IMG/VR virus record: IMGVR_UViG_3300036770_001405
Span: 1-32,930 of that record
Reading direction: 5' to 3' (one strand)
DNA: 32,930 nt
Source of the DNA: a virus
Shown here piece by piece: positions 19,186 through 30,151 of this stretch. The notes below the pieces were generated by a model. The model was not told the origin of the DNA, made no database searches, and worked only from the letters and a program-made list of their open reading frames with translations. The translations under genes were made by a program, and so were the position numbers. Within the stretch, counting starts at the first letter, position 1, and each line of letters starts with the position of its first letter.

Positions 19186-19306
19186 TTGCCTTCTCTAATT
19201 GTTGTTTTTCTTTTTTTAACTCAGCTTCTTTAAGTGCTTGTTTAAGCTTCTCAGCAAATACTGATTCGCCTAGTTTAGTACTTAAATCTTTATTTGAAAA
19301 GTTCAT
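19154..19306 (-). CDS. 50-residue Lys/Glu-rich coiled-coil microprotein
   Basis: ATG 19306 lies behind GGGAAG. After MNFSNKDLSTKLGESVF the protein is a continuous charged helix (KQALKEAELKKEKQQLEK). It overlaps both neighbours, consistent with translational coupling. Function unknown. Confidence 0.55.
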   Translation of the reverse strand: MNFSNKDLSTKLGESVFAEKLKQALKEAELKKEKQQLEKANEKQRSQTSE

Positions 19307-19460
19307 CTTTTTTCTTCCCATTTATACTTTTTAGTAAAGCATTGTAAAGTGCCTTTTCGTAACTTGTAATTTTAGTTCCTGAAAATTCTTGAACTATAAA
19401 ATAGTTTTTAATTATCTCGGAACAACCTTTTAGAATATCAATATCAACAGATTTTTTCAT
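19290..19460 (-). CDS. 56-residue microprotein
   Basis: From ATG 19460: MKKSVDIDILKGCSEIIKNY, then a small helical or mixed protein ending KKKDELFK. It sits two bases after the stop of the 30-residue membrane gene and overlaps the next gene by 17 bases. Unrecognised. Confidence 0.5.
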   Translation of the reverse strand: MKKSVDIDILKGCSEIIKNYFIVQEFSGTKITSYEKALYNALLKSINGKKKDELFK

Positions 19461-19461
19461 T

Positions 19462-19554
19462 CTAATTAATTGCTAAATGTATTAATATTATACTTGCACC
19501 AAGCAATATAGCTGTGATAACGAACCCTATTCCGTCTTTAGTTTCTCTAGTCAT
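19462..19554 (-). CDS. 30-residue single-pass membrane microprotein
   Basis: ATG 19554 follows GGGAGAAC. A short polar N-terminus (MTRETKDG) is followed by one membrane helix (IGFVITAILLGASIILIHLA). Start and stop are coupled to the neighbours (ATGA overlap with the 28-residue gene). Function unknown. Confidence 0.5.
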   Translation of the reverse strand: MTRETKDGIGFVITAILLGASIILIHLAIN

Positions 19555-19637
19555 TTATTGTTCTCCCATATTAAGATTGCCAAAAACACTGCGAAACAGA
19601 AGTACCAAAACCCTAAATCATTTATAACTTCTAGCAT
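19551..19637 (-). CDS. 28-residue single-pass membrane microprotein
   Basis: From ATG 19637: MLEVINDLG, then an aromatic-rich membrane helix (FWYFCFAVFLAILIW), ending ENNK. Its coding sequence contains the ribosome site for the next gene. The tiny size lowers confidence, but it sits in a chain of coupled starts. Confidence 0.45.
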   Translation of the reverse strand: MLEVINDLGFWYFCFAVFLAILIWENNK

Positions 19638-19798
19638 TGTTTTGTCATCATGTTGTTAAGTTTATTTATTAGAGTAGTAATACGTTTCTTTGTATGCTCT
19701 CCTCTAATTTCATTATCCAATAAGATTCTTGATAGAACTGCTGTCATCAATTTCATTTCATAATAACTCATTGAACAAATTACACCTGTGTTTCTCAT
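19631..19798 (-). CDS. 55-residue helical microprotein
   Basis: ATG 19798 lies behind AAGGAAAC. MRNTGVICSMSYYEMKLMTA continues with LSRILLDNEIRGEHTKKR and a basic helical end. It overlaps the preceding 27-residue gene by four bases. Unrecognised. Confidence 0.55.
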   Translation of the reverse strand: MRNTGVICSMSYYEMKLMTAVLSRILLDNEIRGEHTKKRITTLINKLNNMMTKQC

Positions 19799-19878
19799 TT
19801 ACGTTTCCTTCTTTTGTTACCAAAGCAATCCCATTTCTTATGATATGATTTGAGTAATTTTGCTAGTTGTTTTTTCAT
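19795..19878 (-). CDS. 27-residue basic microprotein
   Basis: MKKQLAKLLKSYHKKWDCFG ending NKRRKRK, one strongly basic amphipathic helix. It starts two bases after the stop of the 139-residue gene and its stop overlaps the next ATG. No separate ribosome site is seen, so reinitiation would be needed. Tentative. Confidence 0.4.
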   Translation of the reverse strand: MKKQLAKLLKSYHKKWDCFGNKRRKRK

Positions 19879-19879
19879 A

Positions 19880-20299
19880 TTAATTAATTGTTAAGTTGTA
19901 AGTAGCTATTGTGTTATCCTCTTGTTTTGTTTGTCCACGTTTTAATGCTTCTTCTGCTATTATAGGAGAAAAATAATTCATAAGCTTAACAAACAATTCC
20001 ATGCGTTCTGCGTGTAAATCTTTATTGTACTTTAAGCCAGTTTGTTTTGATTCTAAACTTGTTTCATTTTTTTCAAACAACCACCAAAAATACCAAATCT
20101 TAAATTCTTCTTGTTTTATATTAATGGTAGTTTCTTTTGGCTTTAAAAGACCATAAGGATTAAATTCATAAAGATAATTATTTATTTGTTTTCTAATCTT
20201 ATATGCTTTTTTATCTTCTTCCATTGATGGTAATGATGAAAGATATTTTAATTCTTCTAGCATATTACCACTAACTTTTATTTGTATTTCTTTTTTCAT
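19880..20299 (-). CDS. First gene of the leftward operon, unknown function
   Basis: 139 residues behind AAAGGGAAAT. MKKEIQIKVSGNMLEELKYL looks like a short beta strand plus helix, as in small DNA-binding or regulatory proteins. Later segments are Trp/Tyr-rich (FKIWYFWWLFEKNE) and the end is helical (MNYFSPIIAEEALKRG). As the promoter-proximal gene it is probably made earliest. I do not recognise the family. Confidence 0.65.
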   Translation of the reverse strand: MKKEIQIKVSGNMLEELKYLSSLPSMEEDKKAYKIRKQINNYLYEFNPYGLLKPKETTINIKQEEFKIWYFWWLFEKNETSLESKQTGLKYNKDLHAERMELFVKLMNYFSPIIAEEALKRGQTKQEDNTIATYNLTIN

Positions 20300-20373
20300 A
20301 TTTCCCTTTTTATTTATTAATATAAAATAAATATAATTATAAAAATCCCAAAATCAACTTTAGAATGACAAAT

Positions 20374-20382
20374 TGTGGATAA
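20374..20382 (-). promoter_or_regulatory. Perfect DnaA box (TTATCCACA)
   Basis: TGTGGATAA on the plus strand is the exact consensus DnaA box on the minus strand. It lies about 30 bases from the AT-only tract in the divergent intergenic region. Confidence 0.6.
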
Positions 20383-20457
20383 TTTATACAAGAAATATAT
20401 CAATTAAAACAATGACTTATTCGTTGCTATTTTGTTCTCTTTTTGATACTAGGGATT

Positions 20458-20483
20458 GTGGGTAAGTGCCTTCCCTTACCCAC
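20458..20483. repeat. 9-bp perfect inverted repeat, DnaA-box-like arms
   Basis: GTGGGTAAG, an 8-base loop, then CTTACCCAC. Extended by a base, the left arm reads TGTGGGTAA, one mismatch from a DnaA box. No T-run follows. The site could be an operator, an iteron-like initiator site or a hairpin in the leader of the rightward transcript. Confidence 0.6.
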
Positions 20484-20504
20484 GTTATATAACTAGGAAA
20501 AATA

Positions 20505-20651
20505 ATGCCAATAATTAAAGGTTATTCTAAAAAATCAATAAGCAAGAATATAAGCCGAGAAATGAAACGTGGTAAATCACAAGCACAATCTGTGGCAATA
20601 GCTTTATCAGTTGCTAGAACTGCAAAGAAAAAAGCAAAGAAATATAAATAG
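20505..20651 (+). CDS. Small basic phage protein (ISKNI...AVAIALSVAR type)
   Basis: 48 residues: MPIIKGYSKKSISKNI, then QSVAIALSVARTAKKKAKK. This pattern is a widespread small phage protein type without known function. Start ATG 20505 follows TAGGAAAA. The stop TAG overlaps the GTG start of the next gene. It is the first gene rightward of the origin region, so probably early. The high Lys content suggests nucleic-acid or ribosome contact, which is inference. Confidence 0.65.
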   Translation: MPIIKGYSKKSISKNISREMKRGKSQAQSVAIALSVARTAKKKAKKYK

Positions 20652-21037
20652 TGCAAATAGCGAAGGCAAACATAATTCATTCTGTTAAGCATCAGAAGTT
20701 TGTGGCTTCTTTTCCATGTGTCGTTTGTGGCAACGATACTCAAGTTCAATGCTGTCATATTCGTTCTATCCCTAAAGTAGGTAATGTAGGTAAAGGCATA
20801 AGAGATGATAGATTCTGTATTCCAATGTGCTTTACTTGTCATACCCAACAGCACCTTATAGGTGAATTAGAGTTCTTTGAAAAATATAATATAAATCCTA
20901 TATTGATTTCTATGAAGATAGCTAGTATATCTCCTTGTAATAAAATTAACCAAGCCAAACAGGAAGGTGCATACAATGGAAAACTTAACTATCAAGAACA
21001 TATCCGAAATAACAAAAAAAGTTCTTTGCAATCATAA
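20651..21037 (+). CDS. Ref/DUF968-like HNH nuclease-type protein
   Basis: 128 residues with a GTG start sharing a base with the preceding TAG. A zinc/HNH core is visible: FPCVVCGNDTQVQCCHIRS, then DDRFCIPMCFTCHTQQHLIG, with Cys pairs (C-x2-C and C-x2-C) and His residues as in the DUF968/NinG/Ref class. P1 Ref is a RecA-dependent nuclease of this class. A role in recombination or DNA processing near the origin is likely. The C-terminus overlaps the next gene by 71 bases, so the true end of the conserved part is about residue 80. Confidence 0.7.
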   Translation: MQIAKANIIHSVKHQKFVASFPCVVCGNDTQVQCCHIRSIPKVGNVGKGIRDDRFCIPMCFTCHTQQHLIGELEFFEKYNINPILISMKIASISPCNKINQAKQEGAYNGKLNYQEHIRNNKKSSLQS

Positions 21038-21251
21038 ACTATACAAAGACATAAACTTCTTTGACGTTCCACATAACAAAATTTGTTTAGCAGTCATTAG
21101 AGAGATTACAGAATTATCTTATAATGAAATTGGCAAAGCTTATAACAAATCATGGTTTACAATTTATGCTTCCGTAAAAGATACACAAAAGAATGGATTA
21201 AAAGTTTTTACAAATAGAGTTATAGATTTAGTAAAGGCAGAAGTTAAATGA
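20967..21251 (+). CDS. Stand-alone DnaA domain-IV-like DNA-binding protein
   Basis: 94 residues; ATG 20967 or the ATG at 20976 (MENLTIKN) may be the start. The core IREITELSYNEIGKAY and the following TIYASVKDTQK match the C-terminal DnaA domain that binds DnaA boxes (LAR.LT..S..EIG..FG.RDHTTV..A..K). The DHTT signature that contacts DNA is changed to W-F-T-I. The AAA+ and other DnaA domains are absent, so it binds but does not remodel. It could mark the phage origin or compete with host DnaA. Its stop overlaps the initiator gene (ATGA). Confidence 0.65.
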   Translation: MHTMENLTIKNISEITKKVLCNHKLYKDINFFDVPHNKICLAVIREITELSYNEIGKAYNKSWFTIYASVKDTQKNGLKVFTNRVIDLVKAEVK

Positions 21252-21835
21252 ACGAAGGTTGGGTAAGTATATATCGCCAAATATTTGACAATAAAGATTT
21301 AAAAGACAATAATCATTTATTGATATTTATTTATATGGTTGTTCATGCAAGTCATAAACCAACTATTGTAAATTATAGAAGAAAAAGAGTTGTTTTAAAA
21401 CGTGGTCAATTAACTGTTTCTTTAAGAGACTTATGTAAGAGATTTAAGCTTACAGAACGCAAGGTTAGAACTATTTTAAGGAATTTAGAAACGACACAGT
21501 CGCTGACACACACTTTGTTCAAACAATTATCTGTTTATACCATTGTAAATTATAACAAATTTCAAGTTAATAACTTGAGTGAAGTTAAGCTAATTGACAC
21601 ACAAAACGACAGACAGAACAATAAATACTATACTAATACTACTAGTATAGGTAAAAATATGTTAAGTCTTAGCAGTATGACTAATACACCAAAGAAAATT
21701 ACTATTCCTACCTTGCAAGACTTAAAAACCAAGATCATTGAGAAACCCAAAGAAAAGAACGAGTGGGAAATTATGCGTGAAAAACTTGACGCAGAAGATT
21801 ACGAAAAATGGGTTCTGCACACATTAAACTCTTGA
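21248..21835 (+). CDS. Replication initiator-like winged-helix protein (DnaD/gpO-like)
   Basis: 195 residues. NEGWVSIYRQIFDN, then LKRGQLTVSLRDLCKRF and LTERKVRTILRNLE is the standard N-terminal helix-turn-helix of phage replication proteins (DnaD/gpO-like), with VYTIVNYNKFQ as the wing end. The middle is an Asn/Thr-rich linker. The C-terminus (EWEIMREKLDAEDYEKWV) may recruit the host helicase loader or helicase. With the preceding DnaA-like gene it forms the initiation module. No primase or helicase gene was seen. Confidence 0.75.
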   Translation: MNEGWVSIYRQIFDNKDLKDNNHLLIFIYMVVHASHKPTIVNYRRKRVVLKRGQLTVSLRDLCKRFKLTERKVRTILRNLETTQSLTHTLFKQLSVYTIVNYNKFQVNNLSEVKLIDTQNDRQNNKYYTNTTSIGKNMLSLSSMTNTPKKITIPTLQDLKTKIIEKPKEKNEWEIMREKLDAEDYEKWVLHTLNS

Positions 21836-21881
21836 AATAAAACAATAATATCATTATAACTACAAATAACTATATAGGCAT

Positions 21882-21902
21882 GGGGGTTGAAACATTACCC
21901 CC
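21882..21902 (+). terminator. GC stem-loop, possible terminator
   Basis: GGGGGT, a 9-base loop, then ACCCCC, unusually GC-rich for this genome, about 45 bases after the initiator stop. It is followed only by TTT and then an A-run, so as a plus-strand intrinsic terminator it is weak. It may attenuate transcription between the initiator and the acidic protein. Confidence 0.4.
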
Positions 21903-21976
21903 TTTAAAAAAAATATATTTACTTAATCATAAAATATCATTACTGATTCGCCTTATAACAACAGGAGAATGTAGTT

Positions 21977-22153
21977 ATGGAAAAAACAATAGAAAAAGCT
22001 TTAAAGCAATTAGACAAAATAGATGATTTAGTTGCAAAGCTTAGAGACCAACTTGAGTCAGCGATTGACGACTATGAGACAGATGATTCTGATGATTACG
22101 ATTCAGATGATGATTTCTCAGATGACGAAGATTTAGATTCTGACGAAGAATAA
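21977..22153 (+). CDS. Hyperacidic 58-residue protein (possible DNA mimic)
   Basis: ATG 21977 follows the good ribosome site AGGAGA. The first 30 residues are a coiled-coil-like helix (MEKTIEKALKQLDKIDDLVA). The remainder is almost only Asp, Glu and Ser with a few Tyr (ETDDSDDYDSDDDFSDDEDL). Strongly acidic phage proteins often imitate DNA to block restriction enzymes, nucleases or RNA polymerase (e.g. T7 Ocr), but a flexible acidic tail could do other things. It stands alone between a stem-loop and the glucosaminidase gene. Confidence 0.65.
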   Translation: MEKTIEKALKQLDKIDDLVAKLRDQLESAIDDYETDDSDDYDSDDDFSDDEDLDSDEE

Positions 22154-22179
22154 TCTAATTAGATAAGCTGTAAAGCTGG

Positions 22180-22196
22180 AAGGTTATCAAAACCTT
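22180..22196 (+). promoter_or_regulatory. Hairpin in the leader of the glucosaminidase gene
   Basis: AAGGTT-ATCAA-AACCTT forms a 6-bp stem. Its left arm contains the AGG of the only ribosome-site-like sequence (GGAAGG at 22178), which lies 21 bases before ATG 22205. When folded it could hide this site or bring it closer. Suggestive only. Confidence 0.35.
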
Positions 22197-22204
22197 AAAA
22201 ATCA

Positions 22205-22819
22205 ATGAACAGTAAAATACTAAGCATCAAGCTTTGGGATTACACAATCATTTTATTATTTTTAATGTTAGTGTTTTTAATTGGAACATTTTTTCCAAAC
22301 GATCACACTAAAGACAAAATAAGACAAAGCACTATTGATGAAATTAGGAAGATAGGTTTCTTTGAACCTAAAGTGGATAACACTTCACCAGATAAGTTTA
22401 TAGCTAGTATGCAGAAATGTATTGCTTATATAAACTTGGATTTAGAAAAAGACCAACATATACCAACATCATTAATTATTGCACAAAGCATAGTTGAAAG
22501 TAACTTCGGGACTTCAAGATTTGCTAAGGAAGGCAATAATCTATTTGGAGTTAGAGTATGGTCTAAGGAAGGTATGTTGCCATTATTACAAGACCCATCA
22601 ATTAACTGGAGAGTTAAAACTTATAAATCTAAATGCCAATCAGTTAGGCATTATATAAGCACATTAAACAATAATCATCACTATCAGGAGTTTAGACAAC
22701 TGAGAAATAGAACAAAAGACCCTATGAAATTAGTTGATACATTAGACAATTTTTCCACTAGCATTTCTTATACAAATCATGTTAAGCAGATATTAATTAA
22801 ATACAAAGGCAAGATATAA
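22205..22819 (+). CDS. Membrane-anchored glucosaminidase-type peptidoglycan hydrolase (Bax-like)
   Basis: 204 residues. One N-terminal membrane helix (about 13-30, IILLFLMLVFLIGTFF) acts as a signal-anchor. The glucosaminidase/Bax domain occupies 85-200: HIPTSLIIAQSIVESNFGTS with probable catalytic Glu98, then FAKEGNNLFGVRVW, and a Tyr-rich end (SYTNHVKQILIKYK). It cleaves glycan strands. The anchor suggests secretion by the host Sec path and activation like SAR-type endolysins, or a non-lysis wall role. It is distant from the M15 endolysin. The stop overlaps the next ATG. Confidence 0.8.
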   Translation: MNSKILSIKLWDYTIILLFLMLVFLIGTFFPNDHTKDKIRQSTIDEIRKIGFFEPKVDNTSPDKFIASMQKCIAYINLDLEKDQHIPTSLIIAQSIVESNFGTSRFAKEGNNLFGVRVWSKEGMLPLLQDPSINWRVKTYKSKCQSVRHYISTLNNNHHYQEFRQLRNRTKDPMKLVDTLDNFSTSISYTNHVKQILIKYKGKI

Positions 22820-23431: not shown

Positions 23432-23461
23432 TAGAACATTTAACGAACATAGTCGGTTAAT

Positions 23462-28356: not shown

Positions 28357-29334
28357 GTGGCACAAGATCTTCTACAACAGCTACAATTAATTAGAGAAAA
28401 AGCTGTAAACAATTTAGAAGCACAACATCAAAAACTATTAATAGATACTTTACAAAACTTAGAAAAAGAAGTTGTAAGATTAGTATCAGAACTGCCTATT
28501 CAAGAAGGTGCTTTATTTAACACAAGACTTGCAATAGAGATTAGACCAAAGCTACAAAAAGCTATTGAAGATTTATACCTAACTAAAGTTCAAACATTTA
28601 TAAATGACTATGATAAGATTGCAGGAACTATTGTTGCAACTTATGGTAAGCTTCCAATACCTAATGAGTTTAAACAAATAACTGAAGCTGATTTAACTAC
28701 TATTCAACAGTTAAAGAAAATAGCATTTACACAATTTCAAAACCTAGCAACAGAATTTAGTAACACATTAGCACAAGAAGTTTATCAATCTACATTAGTA
28801 GGTAAACCATTTGCAGATGTAGTAGAAACTGTAAGAGCAAAGATTAATGGTATCTATCAACAAGCTGATACTAGAAAACAAAAAGAACTTGTGGACTTTG
28901 TTCAAGCACAAAGAATCGCTGGGAAAACAAATACAGAAGATTTTAAAACTGCAGTAGATGAACTTAAACAATCTTATGGTTCTACAGTTACAGGTGCTAA
29001 TCTTGCAGTATATTCATCTCAAATAGTACAAGATGCTTTAATGGGGTTTGATGGACAATTTGCAAAGTTTAGAGCAGATGAATTAGGTTTAACTAGCTAT
29101 GTTTATTTTGGTTCTATTATTAGAGATAGTAGAGATTTCTGTGTAGAACATGCAAACAAAATATTTACAGAAGAAGAAGCTAGACAATTATGGCAGAATG
29201 ACTGGCAAGGTAAATCAGGTAGCGACCCATTTATTGATAGAGGTGGTTATAATTGCAGACATCATTGGCAACCAGTAGACCCTGAGTGGGGAACTGTAAA
29301 AGATGATGGTACATTTGAATACACAGTAGATTAG
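28357..29334 (+). CDS. Head morphogenesis protein (SPP1 gp7 / Mu gpF-like)
   Basis: 325 residues with a GTG start one base after the portal stop. The C-terminal motif of the family is clear: IIRDSRDFCVEHANKIFTEE (about 253-272) and GGYNCRHHWQPVDP (about 295-308), with the Cys and His residues usually conserved. The remaining part is helical. It is a minor head protein associated with the portal. A terminator-like hairpin follows. Confidence 0.88.
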   Translation: MAQDLLQQLQLIREKAVNNLEAQHQKLLIDTLQNLEKEVVRLVSELPIQEGALFNTRLAIEIRPKLQKAIEDLYLTKVQTFINDYDKIAGTIVATYGKLPIPNEFKQITEADLTTIQQLKKIAFTQFQNLATEFSNTLAQEVYQSTLVGKPFADVVETVRAKINGIYQQADTRKQKELVDFVQAQRIAGKTNTEDFKTAVDELKQSYGSTVTGANLAVYSSQIVQDALMGFDGQFAKFRADELGLTSYVYFGSIIRDSRDFCVEHANKIFTEEEARQLWQNDWQGKSGSDPFIDRGGYNCRHHWQPVDPEWGTVKDDGTFEYTVD

Positions 29335-29343
29335 AACATTTTA

Positions 29344-29365
29344 GCAACAACTTTGTTGCATTTTT
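29344..29365 (+). terminator. Intrinsic terminator after the head morphogenesis gene
   Basis: GCAACAA and TTGTTGC pair (7 bp, tiny loop; or 6 bp with a 4-base loop) and are followed by A and five T residues at 29361-29365. It lies ten bases past the stop and before the scaffold/capsid pair. It probably reduces readthrough so that capsid genes are expressed from a separate start. A perfect TTGACA lies at 29382, though no good -10 was found at the right distance. Confidence 0.6.
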
Positions 29366-29416
29366 ACAATTTCCTTGATAATTGACAATTATAACAATAT
29401 AGAAGGAGAACAAACA

Positions 29417-30151
29417 ATGAACGACAAAGTAAAAGAGTCGGTTGAGAATACAGCATCTCAAGACAATGCTGGAGTAAACGAAGTTTCTGAAACAACTTCA
29501 ACTGAGAACAAAGTTTTTACTGCTGAGCAGTTAGAACAAATAGTTCAAAGAAGATTAGAGAGATATAAAAAATCTGTTTCTAATAAACTTGATGGCATAG
29601 ATATTGAAGAAGCCAAAAAGTTACTTGAAGAAAAGAAACTTAAAGAACTAGAAATCGCTAAACAACGTGGCGAATTTGATAAAGTTCTGAAGGAAACAGT
29701 ATCAAAAAAGGATTCAAAAATTCAATCGTTGGAATCTGAATTAAAAAGGATTCGTATAGACGAAACATTAGTAAATGTAGCTAGTGGCATGAAAGCTGTT
29801 AAACCAGCAGAAGTGAAACAACTACTTAGAAATAATGTTAGACTAAACGAGCAAGGTTCTGTTGAAGTTATCAACGAAGATGGAACTCCAAGATATTCAG
29901 ATAAAGGCGAACCAATGACAGTAAATGAATTGGTAAGCGAATACTTAAAGAACAATCCACACCATGTTTTATCTACACCATCAGGTGCAGGTAGCAAGGG
30001 ACAGATTGGTGGTTCTTCGCCAAAGACAGTAAATATTGGTGATCTTGATTTAAGTAATCCTAATGACAGAAAAATTTATGCTGACATGAGGAAACAAAGA
30101 GATCAGGGTATATTTAAAATGAAAATAACTAACAACAACAACAAACTATAA
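29417..30151 (+). CDS. Capsid scaffolding protein
   Basis: 244 residues from ATG 29417, chosen for the strong AGAAGGAGAA site; a TTG at 29375 would be an unlikely start. Composition is as expected of a scaffold: acidic disordered N-terminus, then a long charged coiled coil (KKLLEEKKLKELEIAKQRGE, residues about 60-125), and a polar C-terminal end that binds capsid. Directly upstream of the major capsid gene. There is no protease motif. Confidence 0.8.
   Translation: MNDKVKESVENTASQDNAGVNEVSETTSTENKVFTAEQLEQIVQRRLERYKKSVSNKLDGIDIEEAKKLLEEKKLKELEIAKQRGEFDKVLKETVSKKDSKIQSLESELKRIRIDETLVNVASGMKAVKPAEVKQLLRNNVRLNEQGSVEVINEDGTPRYSDKGEPMTVNELVSEYLKNNPHHVLSTPSGAGSKGQIGGSSPKTVNIGDLDLSNPNDRKIYADMRKQRDQGIFKMKITNNNNKL

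Follow-up and report, generated by a model that had tools for sequence, protein, structure and literature searches.

The window analysed here is the record of a phage, 32,930 bases long with a GC content of about 31%. One of its genes encodes a small free-standing protein, predicted to fold like domain IV of DnaA, in which the residues used by DnaA to contact its boxes have been lost and a different, near-invariant motif occupies their place. The gene is linked to that of a DnaD-like helicase loader. The protein may well be a site-specific DNA-binding factor for the initiation of phage replication that works with the DnaD-like protein at a site of the phage, a reading that we put forward tentatively.

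Terminase, portal and tape-measure genes are present in the window, and its one DNA match is to Pelagibacter phage HTVC112P (72% identity over about 680 bases). A PADLOC search gave a weak CARF match (E 0.0084). The family of the DnaA-like gene comprises about 90 contigs of uncultured phages in IMG/VR. At the sensitivity used, searches of cultured phages, plasmids and GTDB genomes yielded no members, matches at E values of 6 to 7 being disregarded.

The DnaA-like gene and its predicted fold

An open reading frame at 20967 to 21251, proposed in the first-pass annotation, is present and opens with a GTG at 20967. This GTG overlaps the Shine-Dalgarno sequence AGGAAGG of the gene (20961 to 20967, plus strand), itself kept in most relatives, whereas the ATG at 20976 is shared with the relatives. 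The ATG is therefore the best candidate for the start, and the gene, as delimited by its reading frame, its relatives, profile matches and the fold model, runs from 20976 to 21251 on the plus strand and encodes 91 amino acids. Comparison with 53 relatives counted 467, 318 and 1078 differences at codon positions 1, 2 and 3, respectively. The reading frame is thus under selection at the protein level and represents a real gene.

The only Pfam match of the protein is to PF08299 (Bac_DnaA_C). The kinship proposed earlier was recovered by this profile at E 0.0062, but the score of 17 bits lies below the curated cut-off of 31.5 bits. The same profile matches 16 of 28 relatives as well as all five relatives of another test, the latter in the same register with 14.5 to 18 bits; one of these five is the protein of L246, about half identical to that of the window. 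The DnaA models of NCBIfam match the same stretch (E 0.004 to 0.027). A profile search of PDB sequences returned ribosomal protein L13 and EST3 as unconvincing top matches, so that sequence profiles alone are no proof of homology. Taken together, the sequence evidence for kinship with DnaA domain IV is weak but consistent.

The structural model is clearer. AlphaFold predicted six helices with a mean pLDDT of 91.9, two of the five models being poor (pLDDT 46 to 50). A Foldseek search against the PDB placed DnaA in all six top chains, the domain IV matches spanning residues 1 to 91. With a second aligner the DnaA chains reached Z scores of 9.3 (3pvp), 8.5 (1j1v), 8.5 (8btg), 7.9, 7.3 and 6.6, against 5.1 for the best helix-turn-helix protein other than DnaA. 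A chance helix-turn-helix resemblance is ruled out by this margin. The model clearly has the fold of DnaA domain IV and not that of an unrelated helix bundle; the retention of the C-terminal helices of DnaA, suggested from the first inspection, is upheld. The absence of the ATPase was also correctly recognised: the 91 residues are entirely covered by the domain IV match and the AAA+ ATPase domain III is missing. Defining features of DnaA and of Bac_DnaA_C were looked for and not found in the protein, so neither name should be given to it, and 'DnaA-domain-IV-like fold' is the safe designation.

A rewritten and fixed DNA-reading motif

DnaA boxes are read by nearly identical residues across bacteria. 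In E. coli DnaA, base contacts are made by R399 of a basic loop, by P423, by R432-D433-H434-T435 and by residues 438-439 (PMC5043019; PMC7561715). The core pattern E-[IL]-T-x-x-S-x-x-x-I-G of the window protein aligns with domain IV of E. coli DnaA, and in this alignment R432-D433-H434-T435-T436-V437 corresponds to K58-S59-W60-F61-T62-I63, encoded at 21147 to 21164 (plus strand) and forming the start of the recognition helix. The [RK]-D-H-T-T signature is absent and K-S-W-[FY]-[TS] is found instead, near-invariant in the family. The replacement had been noted in the first-pass annotation as DHTT to W-F-T-I; the substitution is real, and its register has to be shifted by one residue, DHTT being replaced by S-W-F-T.

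Apart from R432, which is present as a lysine, the published base contacts are all lost. D433-H434-T435 has become S-W-F, H439 is also replaced, and P423 is changed to N or A in most family members. The basic loop that carries the minor-groove arginine R399 is lost as well, the aligned loop reading K-D-I-N-F-F-D-V-P-H.

The new motif is firmly conserved. Among 15 members with about 49 to 100% identity, K58, S59, W60, F61 and Y64 are invariant and the adjacent positions vary; in wider sets of members F61 is replaced by Y in a few, and one fragment (L052) has G instead of W. An invariant motif amid variable neighbours makes a decayed surface unlikely, and this conservation points to a retained function of the new surface, reading either DNA or protein.

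Operon context and possible functions

The DnaA-like gene belongs to a rightward operon on the plus strand, which begins with a lysine-rich open reading frame of 48 amino acids (20505 to 20651) and continues with an HNH-nuclease-like gene (DUF968; 20651 to 21037) that runs into the beginning of the DnaA-like gene. The DnaD-like helicase loader gene follows (21248 to 21835; phrog_2514, E 3e-18). In 78 of 80 loci, as here, the stop codon of the DnaA-like gene and the next start codon overlap as ATGA. A DnaD-like gene is present at a distance of at most 1.2 kb in 70 of 78 loci, and the order HNH, DnaA-like, DnaD-like is constant in all 11 members listed. Phages of the L126/L128 type carry one extra gene between the DnaA-like and DnaD-like genes. 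Its product of about 206 amino acids (5261 to 5881 in L128; downstream of the DnaA-like gene in L126) has no Pfam match and is presumably DNA methyltransferase-like, as judged from an HPPCTYLSNAG motif. A canonical DnaA domain IV was not found in the same slot of sister phages among the best 80 of 236 DnaD-like loci.

According to the replication reading, the protein would be a DnaA cut down to its DNA-binding part and retargeted. It would bind a conserved site within the replication or control region of the phage and initiate phage replication together with the DnaD-like protein, to which it is coupled in translation, the bound site being marked for the helicase loader encoded directly after it. 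The exclusive ranking of DnaA domain IV among the top structure matches, the five invariant residues of the motif and the constant coupling of the genes all favour this role. Some observations weigh on the other side. No origin was located, and no iteron array was detected in 19300-22300, where the only repeats are two-copy repeats at chance level, and gene overlap alone indicates co-translation and not a complex. Some DnaD-like proteins, those that carry a winged helix at the N-terminus, can bind origins unaided, so a second origin binder is not required. Moreover, GafY, the best-studied free-standing DnaA domain IV protein, activates transcription (PMC9632790).

Two elements are candidate sites for the DnaA-like protein. 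One is the block GTTGCYATTNTGTTC, highly conserved and situated in the promoter region of the operon (20423 to 20437, plus strand), which may be the target of this protein or of another regulator. The other is an AT-rich element, TTTAAAAATTATATATTTACATAA, located after the DnaD-like gene (21903 to 21922, plus strand), kept in most relatives and a candidate for an origin or a promoter. The segment 3' of the DnaD-like gene (21836 to 21925) consists of a variable hairpin, absent in some relatives, and then of this AT-rich element.

The main rival explanation is a transcription regulator of the GafY kind, which would bind upstream of phage promoters, contact RNA polymerase and control phage operons; we regard it as possible, though less probable than a role in replication. 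It has a direct precedent in the Alphaproteobacteria (PMC9632790; PMC11150451; PMC9638019). The block GTTGCYATTNTGTTC would suit such a regulator, being almost invariant in the same phages, a conservation that is overstated as the columns were partly chosen by the search pattern, and having related sites elsewhere in the window. Nevertheless, the neighbour of the gene is a DnaD-like helicase loader and not a GafZ-like partner, and the gene lies inside the operon that it would control, behind the promoter-like site. The block may equally serve the XRE repressor of the phage or a LexA-type repressor.

Several other features were noted in the control region and elsewhere in the window. The rightward operon has a -10-like GATACT (20445 to 20450, plus strand), which reads GATAAT in some relatives and was missed by a generic promoter scan requiring a spacer of 16-18 nt. 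The pattern GTTS-N7-GTTC occurs four times in the window against 1.2 expected, at 20423-20437, 23434-23448, 29334-29348 and 29408-29422 (minus strand), and we take these sites to resemble the alphaproteobacterial LexA motif GTTC-N7-GTTC. A leftward promoter-like TTGATT-16-TATATT lies within 20330-20372 (minus strand). Beside it is a partly palindromic CAACTTTAAAGTTG-like sequence, found in many relatives and possibly the operator of the phage XRE regulator.

A bolder form of the replication reading, a minimal initiator without ATPase in which the DnaA fold retargeted by K-S-W-F sits at the phage origin and delivers the DnaD-like loader without an AAA+ initiator of its own, seems rather unlikely. 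More doubtful still is a protein adaptor with the domain IV fold and no DNA binding, serving for example the DnaD-like protein or the HNH nuclease. The loss of all known base contacts and the near-invariant aromatics W60 and F61 on the former DNA-reading face would agree with an adaptor; the conserved lysines K35, K54, K58 and K72 and the intact helix-turn-helix argue against it.

An antagonist of host DnaA, occupying or masking host DnaA boxes or DnaA itself and thereby shutting down host initiation, is improbable, although a DnaA fold without ATPase resembles a dominant-negative form and a conserved perfect DnaA box is present in the phage control region. This box, TTATCCACA, already mentioned in the earlier annotation, lies between the divergent operons (20374 to 20382, minus strand). 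No second exact TTATNCACA occurs in the window, in which DnaA-box matches with at most one mismatch are scarcer than in shuffles (36 vs 63). In the region upstream of the promoter, 30 of 53 distinct sequences have the box (minus strand in 25, plus strand in 5), whereas shuffled sequences would give 0.04, the count of 30 being inflated by the relatedness of the sequences. Orientation and flanks change among relatives, and the box therefore appears to be under selection. In phages with one identical DnaA-like protein, however, it is on the minus strand in L029 and L032, on the plus strand in L030 and absent in L031. Because the box does not travel with identical proteins in this way, host DnaA is its likelier reader, and the box is probably a host DnaA site. 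The same inversions and absences speak against an antagonist, as do the replaced box-reading residues and the missing minor-groove loop, and as a site of the window protein itself the perfect box is disfavoured on both counts. The variable presence of the box among identical proteins is likewise indirect evidence against recognition of TTWTNCACA by the window protein.

A palindrome had likewise been proposed as the target of the protein, in the form of a modified DnaA box. It exists, with arms at 20458-20466 and 20475-20483 (plus strand), in a presumed 5' untranslated region between the -10-like GATACT and the ribosome-binding site of the 48-amino acid reading frame, and is laid out as GTGGGTAAG-TGCCTTCC-CTTACCCAC. 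At least 13 distinct stem sequences occur among the relatives, eleven of them in the main comparison and others in L030/L034, L112 and L125/L128 (examples are GTGTGGTAG/CTACCACAC, GTGGTGTAAG/CTTACACCAC and GTGGTGTGTA/TACACACCAC), and the 8-nt loop TGCCTTCC is invariant. All distinct stems pair over their full length, 100% against a mean of 62% when the arms are shuffled among phages. Covarying arms around a fixed loop are expected of a folded single strand, most simply an RNA hairpin, and not of a site that a protein reads in double-stranded DNA. Moreover, identical DnaA-like proteins occur with different palindromes (L029 vs L030; L037 vs L038), which rules out a fixed binding site at the palindrome. 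Recognition of GTGGGTAAG by the protein, for which only its position close upstream and one arm one base off a DnaA box could be invoked, has in our judgement almost no chance of being correct. The hairpin is found in most phages of the family, the CCTTCC of its loop is complementary to the GGAAGG in the Shine-Dalgarno sequence of the downstream DnaA-like gene, and an Rfam search for it returned nothing credible.

Comparison with known systems

The window protein resembles domain IV of DnaA from E. coli (1J1V) and Mycobacterium tuberculosis (3PVP) in helix order and in its helix-turn-helix, with Z scores of 8.5 to 9.3 over 77 to 80 residues. It differs by the lack of the AAA+ domain, of the basic loop and of the box-reading residues, and by a Pfam score under the cut-off. 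The Trp repressor shares the helix-turn-helix arrangement at Z scores of 4.3 to 4.8, clearly below the DnaA matches, and the window protein gives no sign of the dimerisation or ligand binding of that repressor.

Activation of transcription by GafY proceeds through a sigma factor and IHF. In Caulobacter, this DnaA domain IV homologue activates a phage-like gene cluster, and its action is proposed not to go through oriC (PMC9632790; PMC11150451); the N-terminal domain of GafA is of the same kind (PMC9638019). Our literature searches on phage-encoded DnaA domain IV proteins led to GafA and GafY alone. What these have in common with the window protein is a DNA-binding domain of the DnaA-IV type, free-standing in GafY or fused, in a phage-like element (PMC9632790, PMC9638019). 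By description, GafY has GafZ as its partner and is active in transcription; the window protein adjoins a DnaD-like helicase loader (phrog_2514) and has no adjacent gafZ partner. Two phage families, phrog_16091 and phrog_30669 (131 and 159 profile positions), also match domain IV of E. coli DnaA, the latter being annotated as a replication initiation protein. The window protein has no match to either family, and the phrog_16091 profile found no match in four genomes of the family.

The retained fold with a different, fixed motif would represent a natural change of specificity, from which it could be learned how DnaA-type domains select their DNA and perhaps also how phage replication starts beside host DnaA. 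Free-standing proteins of the DnaA-IV type are already known (GafY; phrog_16091 and phrog_30669), the best-studied of them being transcriptional. The position next to a helicase loader provides a second genomic setting for such proteins, and the combination of an altered yet fixed reading motif with this coupling is new.
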